Shown piece after piece: positions 23,977 to 30,746 of a stretch of 37,962 nucleotides of DNA; the first letter of the stretch is position 1, and each line of letters opens with the position of its first letter. The DNA lies in assembly GCA_021780035.1 (NCBI GenBank), contig JAJXZO010000109.1, positions 1-37,962 of the forward strand. Direction: 5' to 3'. The translations under genes were made by a program, and so were the position numbers. The notes under the pieces were generated by a model. The model searched no databases and was not told the origin of the DNA. It saw only the letters and a program-made list of their open reading frames with translations. This DNA is from Pseudomonadota bacterium. GTDB lineage: Bacteria > Pseudomonadota > Alphaproteobacteria > Acetobacterales > Acetobacteraceae.

Positions 23977-26408
23977 GCCGCCGCGCGCCCTTCGCCAGCC
24001 TGGCACCGGTGTTCCTGGTGTCGATGGGCTCGGTCGGCTTCGAGATCGCGCTCACCCGCTATTTCGCCGTCTCCAAATGGTCGGAATACGGCTATTGGGT
24101 CATCTCGATCGTCCTCGCCGGCTTCGCCGCCAGCGGCGTGGCGATGGCGCTGGCCCGCACCGTCTGCATCCGTCACCGGGACGCGCTGCTGCAATTCCTG
24201 CCGGCCACCCTGGTCGTTGCCGCCGCCGCAGGCTTCCATCTCGCGGCCATCAATCCGTTCAACCCGCTGGAATTGCAGAATCCTGTCACCTTCGGCGGGC
24301 AGTTGTGGCTGATCGGCGGCTACTACGCGGAGCTGATCCCGTTCTTCTTCCTCGCCGGGCTGTACATCAGCCTCGCCTTCGTCCTGAACGAAGGCGACAT
24401 CGGCCGCGTCTACGGTTCCGACCTCACCGGCGCGGGCCTCGGCGCGCTCGCCGTGCTCGGACTGATGTTTCTCGTCCACCCGTTCCTGCTGGTGCCGTGG
24501 CTCTTGCCGCCCCTCGCTCTCGTGGCCGCCTTCGCCCCGGTCCGCCGGCCGCGCGCGCTGGCGCTGGCCGCGCTCGCGCTCGTCGCCGGCGAGGCTCTGC
24601 TGCTCACCGGCAAGGGGCCGCAAATCAACGATTTCAAGGCGATCTATGCGCCTCTGCACGTGCCGGGCAGCCGCAGCCTCGCCTCCCTGGACTCCCCCCG
24701 CGGCTACTACCAATTGCTCGACGATTTCACCGAGCGGGTGAACACCGACATCTCCAACGATGCCGGCATGCTGAACCTGCCCGACCCGCCGCGCACCTAC
24801 GGCCTCTACCGTGACGGCGACCGCCTTGCGTCGATGCCGAAGGCGGCGCCGGTGGCGGGCTACGCGCCGGCGGCGCTTTCCGCGTTGCCGTACCGGCTGA
24901 TCCCCAATGCCCGCGTGCTGCTCGCCGGCGCCTCCGGCGGCTGGCGCATCGCCGAGGCGCGCGCCCTGGGCGCGGCGCACCTCACCGTGCTGGAGCCGGA
25001 ACCCGTTCTGCTTTCGGCGCTTCGCCACGGCTTCGCCGCCGCGCCCGCCTATCCGCCCACGCCAGGAATGCGGCTTTCCGGCGAAGGGCCGATCGCCGCC
25101 ACCGAGGCCGGCGGAAAATGGGACATCATCGACCTCGCCTCGGACTTCCTCAACGCGGCGCCAGCCAACACCTCGGCCTTCGCGGCGGAGGCGATCGGGG
25201 GCTACCTGCGCGCCCTCGCCCCGCATGGCATCGTCTCCATCCCGGTCTCCATCCGCGAGTTCCCCGCCTACGCGGTGCGCATGCTCGCCACCGCGCGCGC
25301 GGGTCTGCACGCGGCGGGCGTGCGGGACGTGCCGGCGCACGTGCTGGTGATCCGCTCGGCCTGGAACGTGCGCATCCTGCTGTCGCCCCAACCGTTCGGC
25401 GCCGCCGAGATCGCCGCGGCACAGAAGTTCTGCGACGATCTTTCCTTCGATATCAGCTACTACCCTGGCATTGATGTGGAGAAGGCGCGGGCCGGCATCT
25501 ACAACGACCTCCCCGCCGTCTCCTTCACCACCGGGCGCATCCTGCCGCACTCCGGACCCGACGACGCCATCGCCGATGAAGCGCTGGCGGTGCTCGAGGG
25601 AAAGCCGACCGCCTCGGGCGAAGCCTTCGACCTCACCCCCATCACCTTCAACCGCCCAGCCTTCTACGCGGTGCTGCGGCTTTCGCAGCTTGGCAGCATC
25701 CTGAAGCGCATCGAGATCCTGCCGCAGGCGGAACTCGGACCGCTGGTGACGCTGGCGGTGCTCGCCCAGGCGGTGGTGGTGGCGCTGCTGGTGCTGGCCC
25801 TGCCCCTTCTCGGCGGCGCGCGCTTCACCGCGGGAGACGTGCCCCGCGCGCGCACGGGGGGCTATTTCGCCGCCCTCGGCCTCGGCTTTTTCGCCATCGA
25901 GATCGTGCTGATCGAACGCGCGAGCTTCCTGCTCGACGACCGCACCACCGGCTTCGCCCTGGTGATTTCCGGCATGCTGGTGTGCTCGGGTCTCGGCAGC
26001 ATGCTGGCGGACCGCTTCGAGGGCCGCGAGCGGCGCGGCATGCTGATCGCCGCGGCGGTGATCCTCGCGTGGTGCGCGCTGATGCTCGTCTTCCTGCAAC
26101 CCCTGCTGCTCGCAGCTCTCGCCCTGCCGTTCTGGGCGCGCGCGGGGCTGCTGCTCATGCTTCTCGCCCCGGTCTCCGTGGCGCTCGGCCTGCCCTTCCC
26201 CCTGGGGTTGTCACGCCTGCGCGGCGGGTCCTTCCTGCCCTGGGCCTGGGGGCTGAATGGCGCGTTCAGCGTGGTGGCGACGCCGCTCGCCACGCTGATC
26301 GCCACCGAAGTCGGCTACGATCAGGTTCTCCTGCTGGCGTTCGTGCTGTATGCCTGTGCTACCGTGTTGTTTCCCTCGCCTCGGAGAGGCCTTCGTGACC
26401 GCACCTGA
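23973..26408 (+). CDS. Polytopic membrane protein with embedded spermidine-synthase-like (SAM methyltransferase fold) domain
   Basis: GTG start; N-terminal TM block (VSMGSVGFEIALTRYFAVSKWSEYGYWVISIVLAGF), central VLLAGASGGWRIAEARALGAAHLTVLEPEP nucleotide-binding-like segment, C-terminal TM block (FFAIEIVLIERASFLLDDRTTGFALVISGMLV). Confidence 0.8.
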   Translation: MSRRAPFASLAPVFLVSMGSVGFEIALTRYFAVSKWSEYGYWVISIVLAGFAASGVAMALARTVCIRHRDALLQFLPATLVVAAAAGFHLAAINPFNPLELQNPVTFGGQLWLIGGYYAELIPFFFLAGLYISLAFVLNEGDIGRVYGSDLTGAGLGALAVLGLMFLVHPFLLVPWLLPPLALVAAFAPVRRPRALALAALALVAGEALLLTGKGPQINDFKAIYAPLHVPGSRSLASLDSPRGYYQLLDDFTERVNTDISNDAGMLNLPDPPRTYGLYRDGDRLASMPKAAPVAGYAPAALSALPYRLIPNARVLLAGASGGWRIAEARALGAAHLTVLEPEPVLLSALRHGFAAAPAYPPTPGMRLSGEGPIAATEAGGKWDIIDLASDFLNAAPANTSAFAAEAIGGYLRALAPHGIVSIPVSIREFPAYAVRMLATARAGLHAAGVRDVPAHVLVIRSAWNVRILLSPQPFGAAEIAAAQKFCDDLSFDISYYPGIDVEKARAGIYNDLPAVSFTTGRILPHSGPDDAIADEALAVLEGKPTASGEAFDLTPITFNRPAFYAVLRLSQLGSILKRIEILPQAELGPLVTLAVLAQAVVVALLVLALPLLGGARFTAGDVPRARTGGYFAALGLGFFAIEIVLIERASFLLDDRTTGFALVISGMLVCSGLGSMLADRFEGRERRGMLIAAAVILAWCALMLVFLQPLLLAALALPFWARAGLLLMLLAPVSVALGLPFPLGLSRLRGGSFLPWAWGLNGAFSVVATPLATLIATEVGYDQVLLLAFVLYACATVLFPSPRRGLRDRT

Positions 26409-27267
26409 CCTCCTGCTCGACCGCCGCCGCTTCCTCGCCGCCGCCGCCCTGCTGGCAACGCCGGCCGCCGCGGCCGCCACCCCCATCCCGTCCACCACCT
26501 GGACGCGCGCCGACTATTTGCGGGCGATGGCCGCCTCCGGACGGGCAACGGATATCAGCCCCGCGGCGTTCGCCGCCATCCAGGCGCGCAAGCCCGCCGC
26601 CATGGCGCGCATCGCCGCCTACCTCAAGGAACACCTGGGCCACGCCGACCCCACGGTGCTGGCCGCCTTCGAGGCGGTGCCGCGCGACTATTTCCACTAC
26701 ATGTACGAAGGCCACTACGCCGTTCCGTCGGAGGCCTACGAGACCAACCCGAAGCCCTGGGCAATCGGTTTCGGCTCGGCGCTGTCCGACTACCTCGGCC
26801 AGGCCTACATGACGCAGCTGGCGAAACCGAAGCCCGGCGAAGTGACGCTCGAGATCGGCACCGGCAGCGGCTTCCAGAGCGCGTTGCTGTCGCGCATCGT
26901 CTCCCAGGCCTACACCATCGAGATCATCAAGCCGCTGGGCGAGGCGGTGAGCCACATCTTCGCCCCGCTCGGCTACGACAACGTCCACACCAGGGTAGGT
27001 GACGGCTACTACGGCTGGCCTGACGTGGCGGGCGGCTTCGACATCATCATGGTGACCTGCGCCGCGGAATACGCGCCGCCCGATCTGTTCAAGCAGATGA
27101 AGCCGGGCGGACGGATGATCATCCCCATCGGCCAACCGTTCAAGCGCGGGCAGGTTCTCTACGTCTACTGGAAGGACGACAAGGGCAAGATCCACTCCCG
27201 GCGCGACGTCGGCGTGTATTTCATCCCGATGACCGGCGCCATCATGAAGCACCCGCGCCAGACGTAG
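26395..27267 (+). CDS. Protein-L-isoaspartate O-methyltransferase-like protein with Tat-type signal sequence
   Basis: GTG start overlapping the previous CDS by 14 nt; LLDRRRFLAAAALLATPAAAA; LEIGTGSGFQSALLSRIV SAM motif; KPGGRMIIPIGQ. Confidence 0.8.
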   Translation: MTAPDLLLDRRRFLAAAALLATPAAAAATPIPSTTWTRADYLRAMAASGRATDISPAAFAAIQARKPAAMARIAAYLKEHLGHADPTVLAAFEAVPRDYFHYMYEGHYAVPSEAYETNPKPWAIGFGSALSDYLGQAYMTQLAKPKPGEVTLEIGTGSGFQSALLSRIVSQAYTIEIIKPLGEAVSHIFAPLGYDNVHTRVGDGYYGWPDVAGGFDIIMVTCAAEYAPPDLFKQMKPGGRMIIPIGQPFKRGQVLYVYWKDDKGKIHSRRDVGVYFIPMTGAIMKHPRQT

Positions 27268-27301
27268 CCACGCCGCGCCTCGCACGGCCGGTTGCCGAAT
27301 T

Positions 27302-27338
27302 CGGAAGCGTCGTATAGTTTGGCTATATGACGCTTCCG
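27302..27338. promoter_or_regulatory. Candidate ModE (Mo-box) operator overlapping modE start codon
   Basis: CGGAAGCGTCGTATAG-TTTGG-CTATATGACGCTTCCG: 16-bp inverted arms with one mismatch; CG..TATA..TATA..CG core resembles ModE sites; contains TATAGT (27313-27318). Confidence 0.65.
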
Positions 27339-28136
27339 GCCAATGCCCCCAGCCCCGCCTCCGCCCTGCTCGCCTTCCGCGGGCCGGGCGCGTTGCACGT
27401 CGGCGCCGAGCGCATCGCCATGCTGGAGGCGGTGGCCGCGCACGGCAGCATCACCGCCGCGGCGAAGGCGCTCGGCACCAGCTACAAGACGGTCTGGGAC
27501 GGGGTGAACGCCATCAACAATCTGTTGCCCGCCCCGGCGCTGCACACGCAGGCCGGCGGGCGCGGCGGCGGCGGCGCCACGCTGACCGCCAGCGGCGAGC
27601 GCCTGATCGCCGCCTTCCACCGCCTGCAGGCAAAGCTCGACGCGATCACCGCCAGCCTTGGCCGCGACGAGGCCGAAGCGCCGCTCGATCTTTTGTTCTG
27701 GAACAACGCGATGAAAACCTCCGCCCGCAACGCCCTGCTCTGCCAGGTGCTCGCCGTCGCGCGGGCCACCGTGAATGCCGAGGTGACGCTGCAAGTGGCG
27801 CCCGGCCGCAACATCGTCGCCGTGGTCACCGCGCGCAGCGCCGGCGAACTCGGCCTCGCGCCGGGCCAGAACGTCCTCGCCCTGATCAAGGCGCCGTTCG
27901 TGATGCTGGCGCCCCGCGACGGCGTTCCGAGGCTTTCGGTCGCCAACCGCATCGACGGCCATGTCGTCTCGCGCCTCGACGACGGCGTGAACAGCGAAGT
28001 CACCGTCGCCATCGGCGAAGGCAAGACGCTCACCGCCGTCATCACCCGCAACAGCGCCGACGCTCTCGCCATCACCGAGGGAGCGGCCGTGAGCGCGCTG
28101 TTCGACGCCGCCCATGTCATTCTCGCAGTAGGGTAA
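27327..28136 (+). CDS. modE: Molybdate-dependent transcriptional regulator ModE (LysR-type N-terminal HTH plus tandem TOBE/Mop domains)
   Basis: IAMLEAVAAHGSITAAAKALGTSYKTVWDGVNAINNLLPAPALHTQAGGRGGGGATLTASGERLI, then two Mop-like repeats; precedes modABC. Confidence 0.93.
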   Translation: MTLPANAPSPASALLAFRGPGALHVGAERIAMLEAVAAHGSITAAAKALGTSYKTVWDGVNAINNLLPAPALHTQAGGRGGGGATLTASGERLIAAFHRLQAKLDAITASLGRDEAEAPLDLLFWNNAMKTSARNALLCQVLAVARATVNAEVTLQVAPGRNIVAVVTARSAGELGLAPGQNVLALIKAPFVMLAPRDGVPRLSVANRIDGHVVSRLDDGVNSEVTVAIGEGKTLTAVITRNSADALAITEGAAVSALFDAAHVILAVG

Positions 28137-28140
28137 CGAT

Positions 28141-28920
28141 ATGTCTTTCAAGGTTTTCTTCCGGCGCGGGCTGTTGCTCGCCGTCCTTGCTCTCGCACCG
28201 GCGGCGGCGCAGGCGCAGACGCAGCCTCTGACGATCTTCGCCGCCGCCAGCCTGACCAACGCGCTCAGGGACGTGAACGCGGCCTGGCAGAAGCAGGGGC
28301 ATCCGGCGTTCCGGGCGGTGCTCGGCTCCAGTTCCACGCTGGCGCGGCAGATCGAGGAGGGGGCGCCGGCCAACCTGTTCGCCTCCGCCGACCTCAAGTG
28401 GATGGACTACCTCGCCGCCCGCAAGCTGATCGTGCCGGAAACCCGCCGCTCGCTGCTCGGCAACACGCTGGTGCTGATCGTGCCGGCCGACAACAAGGTG
28501 ACCGTCACCATCCGCCCCGGCTTCGACCTGATGAAGCTGCTCGGCAAGGATGGGCGGATCGCCACCGGCGACCCGGCGCACGTGCCGGTGGGCATCTATG
28601 CCGAGCAGGCGCTGAAGAAGCTCGGCCTGTGGCAGCAGGCGAAGCCGCGCATCGCCGCCGCCGAGGACGTGCGCGGCGCGCTCCTGCTGGTGGAGCGGGC
28701 CGAGGCGCCGGTCGGCATCGTCTACAGCACCGACGCCGCGGTCAGCCGCCAGGTGCGCATCGCCGGCACCTTCCCCGCCGATTCGCACCCGCCGATCGTC
28801 TATCCGTTCGCGGTGGTGAAGGGCGGCGACAGCCCGGCGGCGCGGCAACTGATGCAGTTCCTCGCAGGCCCCGAGGCAAGCGCCATCTTCGCCCGGTGCG
28901 GCTTCAAGGTGGGAGGCTAG
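28141..28920 (+). CDS. modA: Molybdate ABC transporter substrate-binding protein ModA
   Basis: Signal peptide; LTIFAAASLTNALRDVNAAWQKQ; GSSSTLARQIEEGAPANLFASADLKWMDYL; ends at TAG 28918-28920. Confidence 0.94.
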   Translation: MSFKVFFRRGLLLAVLALAPAAAQAQTQPLTIFAAASLTNALRDVNAAWQKQGHPAFRAVLGSSSTLARQIEEGAPANLFASADLKWMDYLAARKLIVPETRRSLLGNTLVLIVPADNKVTVTIRPGFDLMKLLGKDGRIATGDPAHVPVGIYAEQALKKLGLWQQAKPRIAAAEDVRGALLLVERAEAPVGIVYSTDAAVSRQVRIAGTFPADSHPPIVYPFAVVKGGDSPAARQLMQFLAGPEASAIFARCGFKVGG

Positions 28921-28923
28921 GCG

Positions 28924-29610
28924 ATTCTCACCGACGGCGAATGGCAGGCGGTCTGGCTGTCGTTCCGGGTGGCGCTGGAAGCGGTGGGCTTCGGCCTGCC
29001 GCTTGCGGTGCTGACCGCCTGGGTGCTGGTGCGCTGCCGCTTTCCCGGCCGCGCCTTGCTCAACGCCTTCGTACACCTCCCCCTGGTGCTGCCGCCGGTG
29101 GTGGTGGGATGGCTGCTCCTGATCCTGTTCGGCGTGCGCGGGCCGATCGGCTCGCTGCTGCTCTCCTGGTTCGGCATCCGCCTCGCCTTCACCACCGCCG
29201 CCGCCACGCTCGCCAGCGCGGTGATGGTGTTTCCGATCATGGTTCGCTCGATGCGCCTCGCGCTCGAGGCCGCGGACCTTGGCCTGGAGCAGGCGGCGCG
29301 CACGCTCGGCGCCGGCAGGCTCGACCGCTTCTTCACCATCACCCTGCCGCTCGCCTCGCCCGGCGTGCTGGTGGGCGCCATCGTCGCCTACGCCACCTGC
29401 CTCGGCCAGTTCGGCGCCGTCATCACCTTCGCCGCCAACATCCCCGGCGCCACGCAGACGCTGCCGCTCGCCATCTACGCGGCGCTGCAGCAGCCGGGGG
29501 GAGAGAGCCGCGCCGCCGAACTTTCCCTTATCGCGGTGGTGCTCGCGCTCGCTGGCCTCCTCGCCTCCGAGTGGGCGAACCGCCGGCTCAATTCGATGCT
29601 CGGCCGATGA
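28924..29610 (+). CDS. modB: Molybdate ABC transporter permease ModB; proposed ATT start
   Basis: ILTDGEWQAVWLSFRVALEAVGFGLPLAVLTAWVLVRCRFPGRALL resembles the ModB N-terminus (E. coli MILTDPEWQAVLLSLKV, from memory); no ATG/GTG/TTG between the TAG and GTG 28969; SD GGGAGG at 28911-28916. Gene call strong, start codon uncertain. Confidence 0.88.
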   Translation: MLTDGEWQAVWLSFRVALEAVGFGLPLAVLTAWVLVRCRFPGRALLNAFVHLPLVLPPVVVGWLLLILFGVRGPIGSLLLSWFGIRLAFTTAAATLASAVMVFPIMVRSMRLALEAADLGLEQAARTLGAGRLDRFFTITLPLASPGVLVGAIVAYATCLGQFGAVITFAANIPGATQTLPLAIYAALQQPGGESRAAELSLIAVVLALAGLLASEWANRRLNSMLGR

Positions 29611-30746
29611 GCCTCGACGTTTCCATCGGCCACCGCTTCCCTTCCTTCGAGATCGCGGTGGCCTTCAGCGCCCCCGCCCCCGGCATCACCGTGCTGTTCG
29701 GCGCCTCGGGCGCCGGCAAATCCACCGTCATCACCGCCGTCGCCGGGCTGCTGCGGCCGCAGCACTGCCGCGTGCGCATCGGCCCCGAGGTTCTGGCCGA
29801 CACCAACAACGGCACCTGGACGGCACCCGAGAACCGGCGCGTCGGCATGGTATTCCAGGACGCGCGGCTGTTCCCGCATCTCTCCGTCGCCGACAACCTG
29901 CGTTACGGCCTGAGGCGGGCAAAGGTGCGGGGGCGGATCGACTTTGCCGAGGTCGTGGATCTTCTCGGCATCGAGCCCCTGCTCGGCCGACGCACGCACG
30001 CGCTCTCGGGCGGCGAACGGCAGCGAGTGGCGATCGGCCGCGCCTTGCTCGCGCAGCCCAGGCTGCTGCTGATGGACGAGCCGCTGGCCAGCCTCGACGC
30101 CCCGCGCAAGGCCGAGATCCTGCCTTATCTGATCCGCCTGAAGGCACGGCTCGATCTGCCGGTGCTCTACGTCACGCACGCCCTCGACGAACTGGTGCAA
30201 CTCGCCGATTACGCGGTGCTGCTGGCAGAGGGCCGGGTGCAGGCCGCCGGCCCGGTGGAGGAAATCGCCGCCCGCGCCGACCTGCCGCTGGCCGGCCGTG
30301 CCGACGCCGCCGCCGTGCTCGCCTGCACCATCGCCGGCCATGAGCCAGAGCGCCAACTCACGCGCCTCGCCTGGGGCGACGCCGTGCTGTGGGTGGTGCA
30401 GATCGACCGCCCGGTGGGAGCGAAGGTGCGGCTCCGCATCCCCGCCCGCGAGGTGATTCTCGCCCGCGCCGGCCTGCCGCTCGCCGACAGCCTCAGTGTG
30501 CACAACGTCGTCTCCGGCGTCGTGCGGGCGGTGGCGCCCCGCCCGCCACGCCACACCGCGATGGTGGAAGTGACGGCAGGCGGCGGCAGCCTGCTCGCCC
30601 ACGTCACCCCGGATGCGGTGCAACGCCTCGGCCTCGCCCCCAACGTTCCCGTGGCGGCGCTGATCAAGTCGATGGCGATCGAGGTGATCGGCGACACGGA
30701 CGACACGGACGACACGGAAGCGCCGCCCGCCTACCCGGAACGCTGA
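29607..30746 (+). CDS. modC: Molybdate ABC transporter ATP-binding protein ModC
   Basis: GASGAGKSTVI Walker A; LSGGERQRVAIGRALLAQPRLLLMDEPLASLD; C-terminal TOBE domains; ATGA overlap with modB. Confidence 0.95.
   Translation: MSLDVSIGHRFPSFEIAVAFSAPAPGITVLFGASGAGKSTVITAVAGLLRPQHCRVRIGPEVLADTNNGTWTAPENRRVGMVFQDARLFPHLSVADNLRYGLRRAKVRGRIDFAEVVDLLGIEPLLGRRTHALSGGERQRVAIGRALLAQPRLLLMDEPLASLDAPRKAEILPYLIRLKARLDLPVLYVTHALDELVQLADYAVLLAEGRVQAAGPVEEIAARADLPLAGRADAAAVLACTIAGHEPERQLTRLAWGDAVLWVVQIDRPVGAKVRLRIPAREVILARAGLPLADSLSVHNVVSGVVRAVAPRPPRHTAMVEVTAGGGSLLAHVTPDAVQRLGLAPNVPVAALIKSMAIEVIGDTDDTDDTEAPPAYPER
30693..30719 (+). repeat. Three tandem 9-bp repeats (GACACGGAC x2, GACACGGAA) near modC 3' end
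   Basis: Encodes DTD-DTD-DTE in the ModC C-terminal tail. Confidence 0.85.

Follow-up and report, generated by a model that had tools for sequence, protein, structure and literature searches.

Results

An inverted repeat spans the start of modE

In the window (the whole 37,962-nucleotide stretch of DNA analysed here) the start codon of modE lies within an inverted repeat, which raises the question of whether this short palindrome is at once a repressor site, part of a promoter and the beginning of the gene. The gene itself (27327-28136, + strand) codes for 269 amino acids comprising a winged helix-turn-helix (HTH) and two TOBE/Mop domains. Its N-terminal HTH matches PF00126 (HTH_1) above the cut-off (E 7e-9), the ModE profile TIGR00637 falls slightly below its own (E 2e-26, 91.9 bits against 98.5), and PF03459 and TIGR00638 each match two stretches, corresponding to the two C-terminal TOBE/Mop domains. 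Among solved structures, the closest are those of E. coli ModE, 1b9m (the top structural match) and 1o7l; the SYKxxWDxxNxxN, SARN and KAP stretches of the protein align with 1b9m. Judged by its sequence, 27327-28136 encodes ModE at the head of modABC. The genes that follow are modA for the molybdate-binding protein (28141-28920; PRK10677 and TIGR01256 above cut-off), modB for the permease (28969-29610, with the start taken from the ORF listing; PRK09421 and TIGR02141 above cut-off) and modC for the ATPase (29607-30746; TIGR02142 above cut-off), all four genes being tightly spaced on the + strand. Upstream, and co-directional with modE, lies a protein-L-isoaspartate methyltransferase-like gene (26350-27267).

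As originally predicted, the repeat at the modE start is near-perfect, its 16-bp arms (27302-27317 and 27323-27338) matching in 15 of 16 pairs around a 5-nt spacer. The 27302-27338 repeat is the sole such site in the 2.67-Mb genome, and a script search for further inverted repeats with 16-bp arms, at most one mismatch and a spacer of 0 to 12 nt found none elsewhere in the window. The core pattern GCGTCRTATAG-N5-CTATAYGACGC, with up to three mismatches, matched once in the window and never in 100 window shuffles. A slightly shorter form of it occurs at one site in the whole genome. A chance origin of the repeat was ruled out by these shuffles together with the conservation described below.

The conserved part of the repeat is its inner 25 bp. 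At the outer ends of the arms, the six bases CGGAAG (27302-27307) and CTTCCG (27333-27338) pair with each other in the window and in none of the five relatives, and this symmetry may be due to chance. Because this symmetry is confined to the window, the extra length of the palindrome is not a family feature: the earlier reading of a palindrome longer than a typical Mo-box is not supported as a feature of the site, since no relative shares that length, and we rejected the outer arms as an extension of the ModE site for want of conservation.

The inner repeat matches the Mo-box

Scanning with CGTYATATA-N-TATATRACG gave a match at 27308-27332, CGTCGTATAGTTTGGCTATATGACG, whose half-sites agree with CGTYATATA/TATATRACG at 17 of 18 positions. 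Applied to E. coli, the scan recovered CGTTATATTGTCGCCTACATAACG, which lies 43 nt ahead of the modA ATG and agrees at 16 of 18; this served as positive control. By this comparison the inner 25 bp of the repeat, CGTCGTATA-N7-TATATGACG, is a Mo-box and a candidate ModE operator. It is unique in the genome and lies directly at modEABC; other Mo-box-like sites of the genus are found at mop-like genes and at ABC binding-protein or ABC-transporter genes. With a more degenerate pattern, one additional poor site emerged in the genome, with three mismatches (G000:C46:9563-9587, L076). This GTCCATATAACGGACATATATAACG palindrome, which matches the Mo-box weakly and may be a TGTCCATATAACGGACA dyad of another type of regulator, was set aside.

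Each of the six genus genomes that encode a full-length ModE (G000, G076, G143, G190, G227 and G259) has the same layout at modE, the right half-site being degraded in G190 (two mismatches). Several genomes in the comparison are metagenome assemblies. A seventh genome, G286, has neither a full-length ModE nor the box. When 398 genomes of the family were searched for CGYYATATA-N7-TATATGACG with at most one mismatch, six contained it, all with a full-length ModE; these six hold seven sites, six of them at the modE start.

Two further observations concern boxes away from this position. In G143 a perfect CGTCATATA-N7-TATATGACG box (G143:C1:346300-346324; L077 1501-1525), without clear use as a start codon, lies 87 nt after a gene that, judged by eye, resembles molybdenum-cluster proteins (DUF2478/DUF364-like). 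In G190 and G227 (L081, L083, L086, L088), Mo-box-like sites have as neighbours a small ModE-like gene with an HTH alone, several mop-like genes and a gene for an ABC binding protein; where the leaders can be read, they are ordinary.

Promoter-like elements are fixed relative to the start codon

The original prediction placed a -10-like TATAGT in the left arm and spacer of the repeat and a possible weak -35 at TTGCCG with short spacing, and both placements are supported by the relatives. TATAGT (27313-27318, + strand) covers part of the left half-site and the beginning of the spacer; TATA is kept in 6/6 genus modE promoters, the hexamer reading TATAGT, TATACA, TATAAT (in two relatives), TATAGG or TATAGA. 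TTGCCG (27292-27297, + strand) stands 15 nt before it and has its TTGC in all six, as TTGCCG, TTGCCA or TTGCGG, at the same 15 nt from the -10 (16 in G143). Exactly 8 nt separate the -10 hexamer from the ATG in each of the six modE genes. Mean pairwise identity among these promoters reaches 84% in the -35 hexamer and 77% in the box. It is far lower around them: 29% over the 20 nt preceding the hexamer, 39% in the stretch that separates hexamer and box, and 40% over the 30 nt that follow the box.

Taken together, a fixed box, a TTGC -35, a TATA -10 and an 8-nt gap in 6/6 genomes with diverged flanks support autoregulation and a leaderless mRNA, in line with the original proposal of a ModE site lying over the core promoter and the start codon. 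From the position of the -10 and a discriminator of 6-8 nt, transcription is predicted to start at 27325-27327 on the + strand, either at the A of the ATG or up to 2 nt ahead of it; an 8-nt discriminator would allow a start 1-2 nt ahead of the ATG instead of at its first base. The 15-nt spacing is on the short side, and a simple sigma-70 scan called no promoter at modE. In the alphaproteobacterium Zymomonas mobilis the promoter elements are reported as TTGNNN and TANNNN, and the last T of the -10 is unconserved both there and in Caulobacter (PMC7566282), for which 375 leaderless mRNAs have been reported (PMC4117421).

The absence of a good Shine-Dalgarno sequence before modE, also foreseen, was confirmed: 19 nt separate GGAAG (27303-27307) from the ATG, this element precedes the predicted transcription start, and the anti-Shine-Dalgarno energy at the gene is -1.5 kcal/mol. 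As modC is equally weak in the same operon, this alone is not decisive for a leaderless modE. Across genomes, embedded starts range from +1.2 to -4.0 kcal/mol versus -1.5 to -10.1 for leadered homologues, most of which are at -5.7 kcal/mol or lower.

A model for the control of modEABC

We consider it probable that the 27308-27332 region is an autoregulatory operator-promoter of modEABC, repressed by ModE-molybdate and giving a leaderless mRNA. Directly observed are the site, the promoter-like elements, the placement of the start codon, the conservation of these, the lack of alternative starts and the identity of ModE; we infer ModE binding, its dependence on molybdate, the transcription start and leaderless translation. 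Mechanistically, the left half-site of the Mo-box would double as the -10, with TTGCCG as the -35, and transcription would begin in the right half-site, no more than about 2 nt from the A of the modE ATG. A molybdate-bound ModE dimer would then cover the -10, the transcription start and the start codon, excluding RNA polymerase. At low molybdate ModE would depart and allow a leaderless modEABC mRNA to be made, on which modE would be translated by the leaderless route and modABC would be read from internal sites.

The Mo-box could instead control modEABC while the main transcript starts upstream, at a distal promoter or by read-through from the methyltransferase gene; modE would then have a leader and a non-Shine-Dalgarno start, and ModE would act as a roadblock or block only a minor promoter. 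The methyltransferase gene ends 59 nt before modE and no terminator-like site lies between them, so that read-through leadered transcripts are possible, and in Z. mobilis an additional upstream promoter serves about half of the leaderless transcription units (PMC7566282). We nevertheless regard this arrangement as unlikely, given that the -35 and -10 keep a fixed distance to the ATG in six diverged genomes, that a GC-rich hairpin with a T-run, resembling a terminator, precedes the promoter in G227 and G076, and that the upstream gene is divergent in G259. Moreover, a leadered RNA in the window would fold its AUG into a hairpin of -28 kcal/mol.

That same fold (-28.4 kcal/mol, z = -8.1, with the AUG covered) would be the basis for a reading in which the repeat acts in the RNA, as a hairpin hiding the modE start codon; this would be translational control, and not a DNA operator. 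However, four relatives have a weaker hairpin, at -11 to -15, and in G190 it is nearly gone; what is conserved is the sequence and not pairing alone, and it matches Mo-boxes located away from start codons in other genomes. Nor could an mRNA starting at the ATG form the structure. Being weak in the relatives and unable to form in a leaderless RNA, this very improbable reading was rejected.

The start codon lies in the right half-site

The ATG (27327-27329) is read from the sequence within the right half-site TATATGACG, in the right arm as had been noted, and in 6/6 full-length genus modE genes it starts at base 20 of the box (box +19). The N-terminal peptide predicted from this embedded ATG is TLPANAPSPASALLAFR. 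An in-frame TAG at 27315-27317 excludes upstream modE starts in the window; in-frame stops inside the box bar them in five of the six genus members, the frame of G259 being open farther upstream.

If the start were misassigned, the repeat would be an ordinary upstream Mo-box and translation would begin downstream. In most leadered homologues 15-20 residues precede the conserved HTH region, against 24 in the window, and the Beijerinckiaceae genome L022 offers another potential start 24 nt farther downstream. Yet in G076, G143 and G227 the stretch from the box to the conserved HTH region has no in-frame ATG, GTG or TTG, and the sole candidate in the window before that region, TTG 27393, would cut into the domain; with no usable start in any of these four genomes, we find a misassigned start highly implausible. 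An intrinsic terminator was rejected because no T-run follows the repeat, the only terminator-like match lying inside the gene upstream of modE.

The embedded start apparently arose more than once

Most other relatives with a recognisable box start modE 32-62 nt after the beginning of the box, usually with a clear Shine-Dalgarno sequence. The embedded layout is also found in G018, from another genus of the same family, and in two Beijerinckiaceae metagenome-assembled genomes, L009 and L022. In the ModE tree the genus is placed beside leadered Rhodospirillaceae, and G018, L009 and L022 fall among leadered Rhizobiales; three changes of layout are needed, two of them forced by well-supported branches. 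On this tree, the embedded layout apparently arose at least twice.

In all six genus members the left half-site has C at its mirror position, which pairs with the G of the embedded ATG. G018, L009 and L022 retain T at this position, and the mirror change is thus not obligatory. We tentatively suggest, as a possibility less probable than not, that a ModE operator half-site has been taken over more than once as the start codon of its own gene: the 5' UTR would have been lost and TATATAACG changed to TATATGACG, leaving codons 1-2 (ATG ACG, Met-Thr) held by DNA recognition and not by protein function. The longer palindrome of the window might additionally hide the AUG of read-through transcripts, so that the ModE-controlled leaderless mRNA alone would be translated.

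Two other arrangements were seen among the relatives. In L093 (G018:C70), one Mo-box lies between a divergent leadered mop-like gene and a modE with an embedded ATG, and may control both directions. Pleomorphomonas-type modE genes (L018, L020, L021, L023, L024, L026, L033, L034, L039, L042) have no recognisable Mo-box near their start (at least six mismatches), and autoregulation may have been lost in them.

Discussion

If the proposed operator-promoter is correct, a single 25-bp stretch, conserved across the genus, would act as -10, transcription start, repressor site and start codon together. It would offer a compact test of how the symmetry of an operator is traded against promoter function and coding constraint, as well as a naturally leaderless promoter under metal control, while the picture of ModE biology would be unchanged. 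The literature searched, which covered a minor part of that on ModE, showed no start-codon-in-operator layout for this regulator, which is weak evidence.

The E. coli modABCD operator is likewise a palindrome upstream of a molybdate transporter operon (CGTTATATT-N6-TACATAACG, 24 bp compared with 25 bp in the window), and E. coli ModE shares the domain plan of the window protein. There, however, modE is a separate gene on the opposite strand, whereas here it heads the modABC operon, and the box begins 43 nt ahead of the modA ATG, with a leader containing AAGGGG in between, whereas the window box contains the modE start codon. Closest in gene order and ligand is mopA-modABC of Rhodobacter capsulatus, in which a gene for a ModE-like regulator heads modABC and molybdate represses through a Mo-box (PMC6925177); it differs in having two regulators (MopA and MopB) and NtrC activation.

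Outside the ModE family, acuR-acuI-dddL of Rhodobacter sphaeroides is an autorepressed operon led by its repressor gene, with an operator inverted repeat that overlaps the promoter and an mRNA 5' end exactly at the AUG (PMC3017554). Its repressor belongs to the TetR family and responds to acrylate, and the operator, as described, lies upstream of the ATG without including it. The nreAXY operon of Mesorhizobium is metal-responsive, autorepressed and transcribed as a leaderless mRNA (PMC12724321), but its repressor is of the CsoR/RcnR family and its operator sits in the spacer between -35 and -10, off the start codon. Autorepressed leaderless operons are therefore already known in alphaproteobacteria from acuR and nreA, and the proposed modEABC switch differs from them in having the start codon inside the operator.
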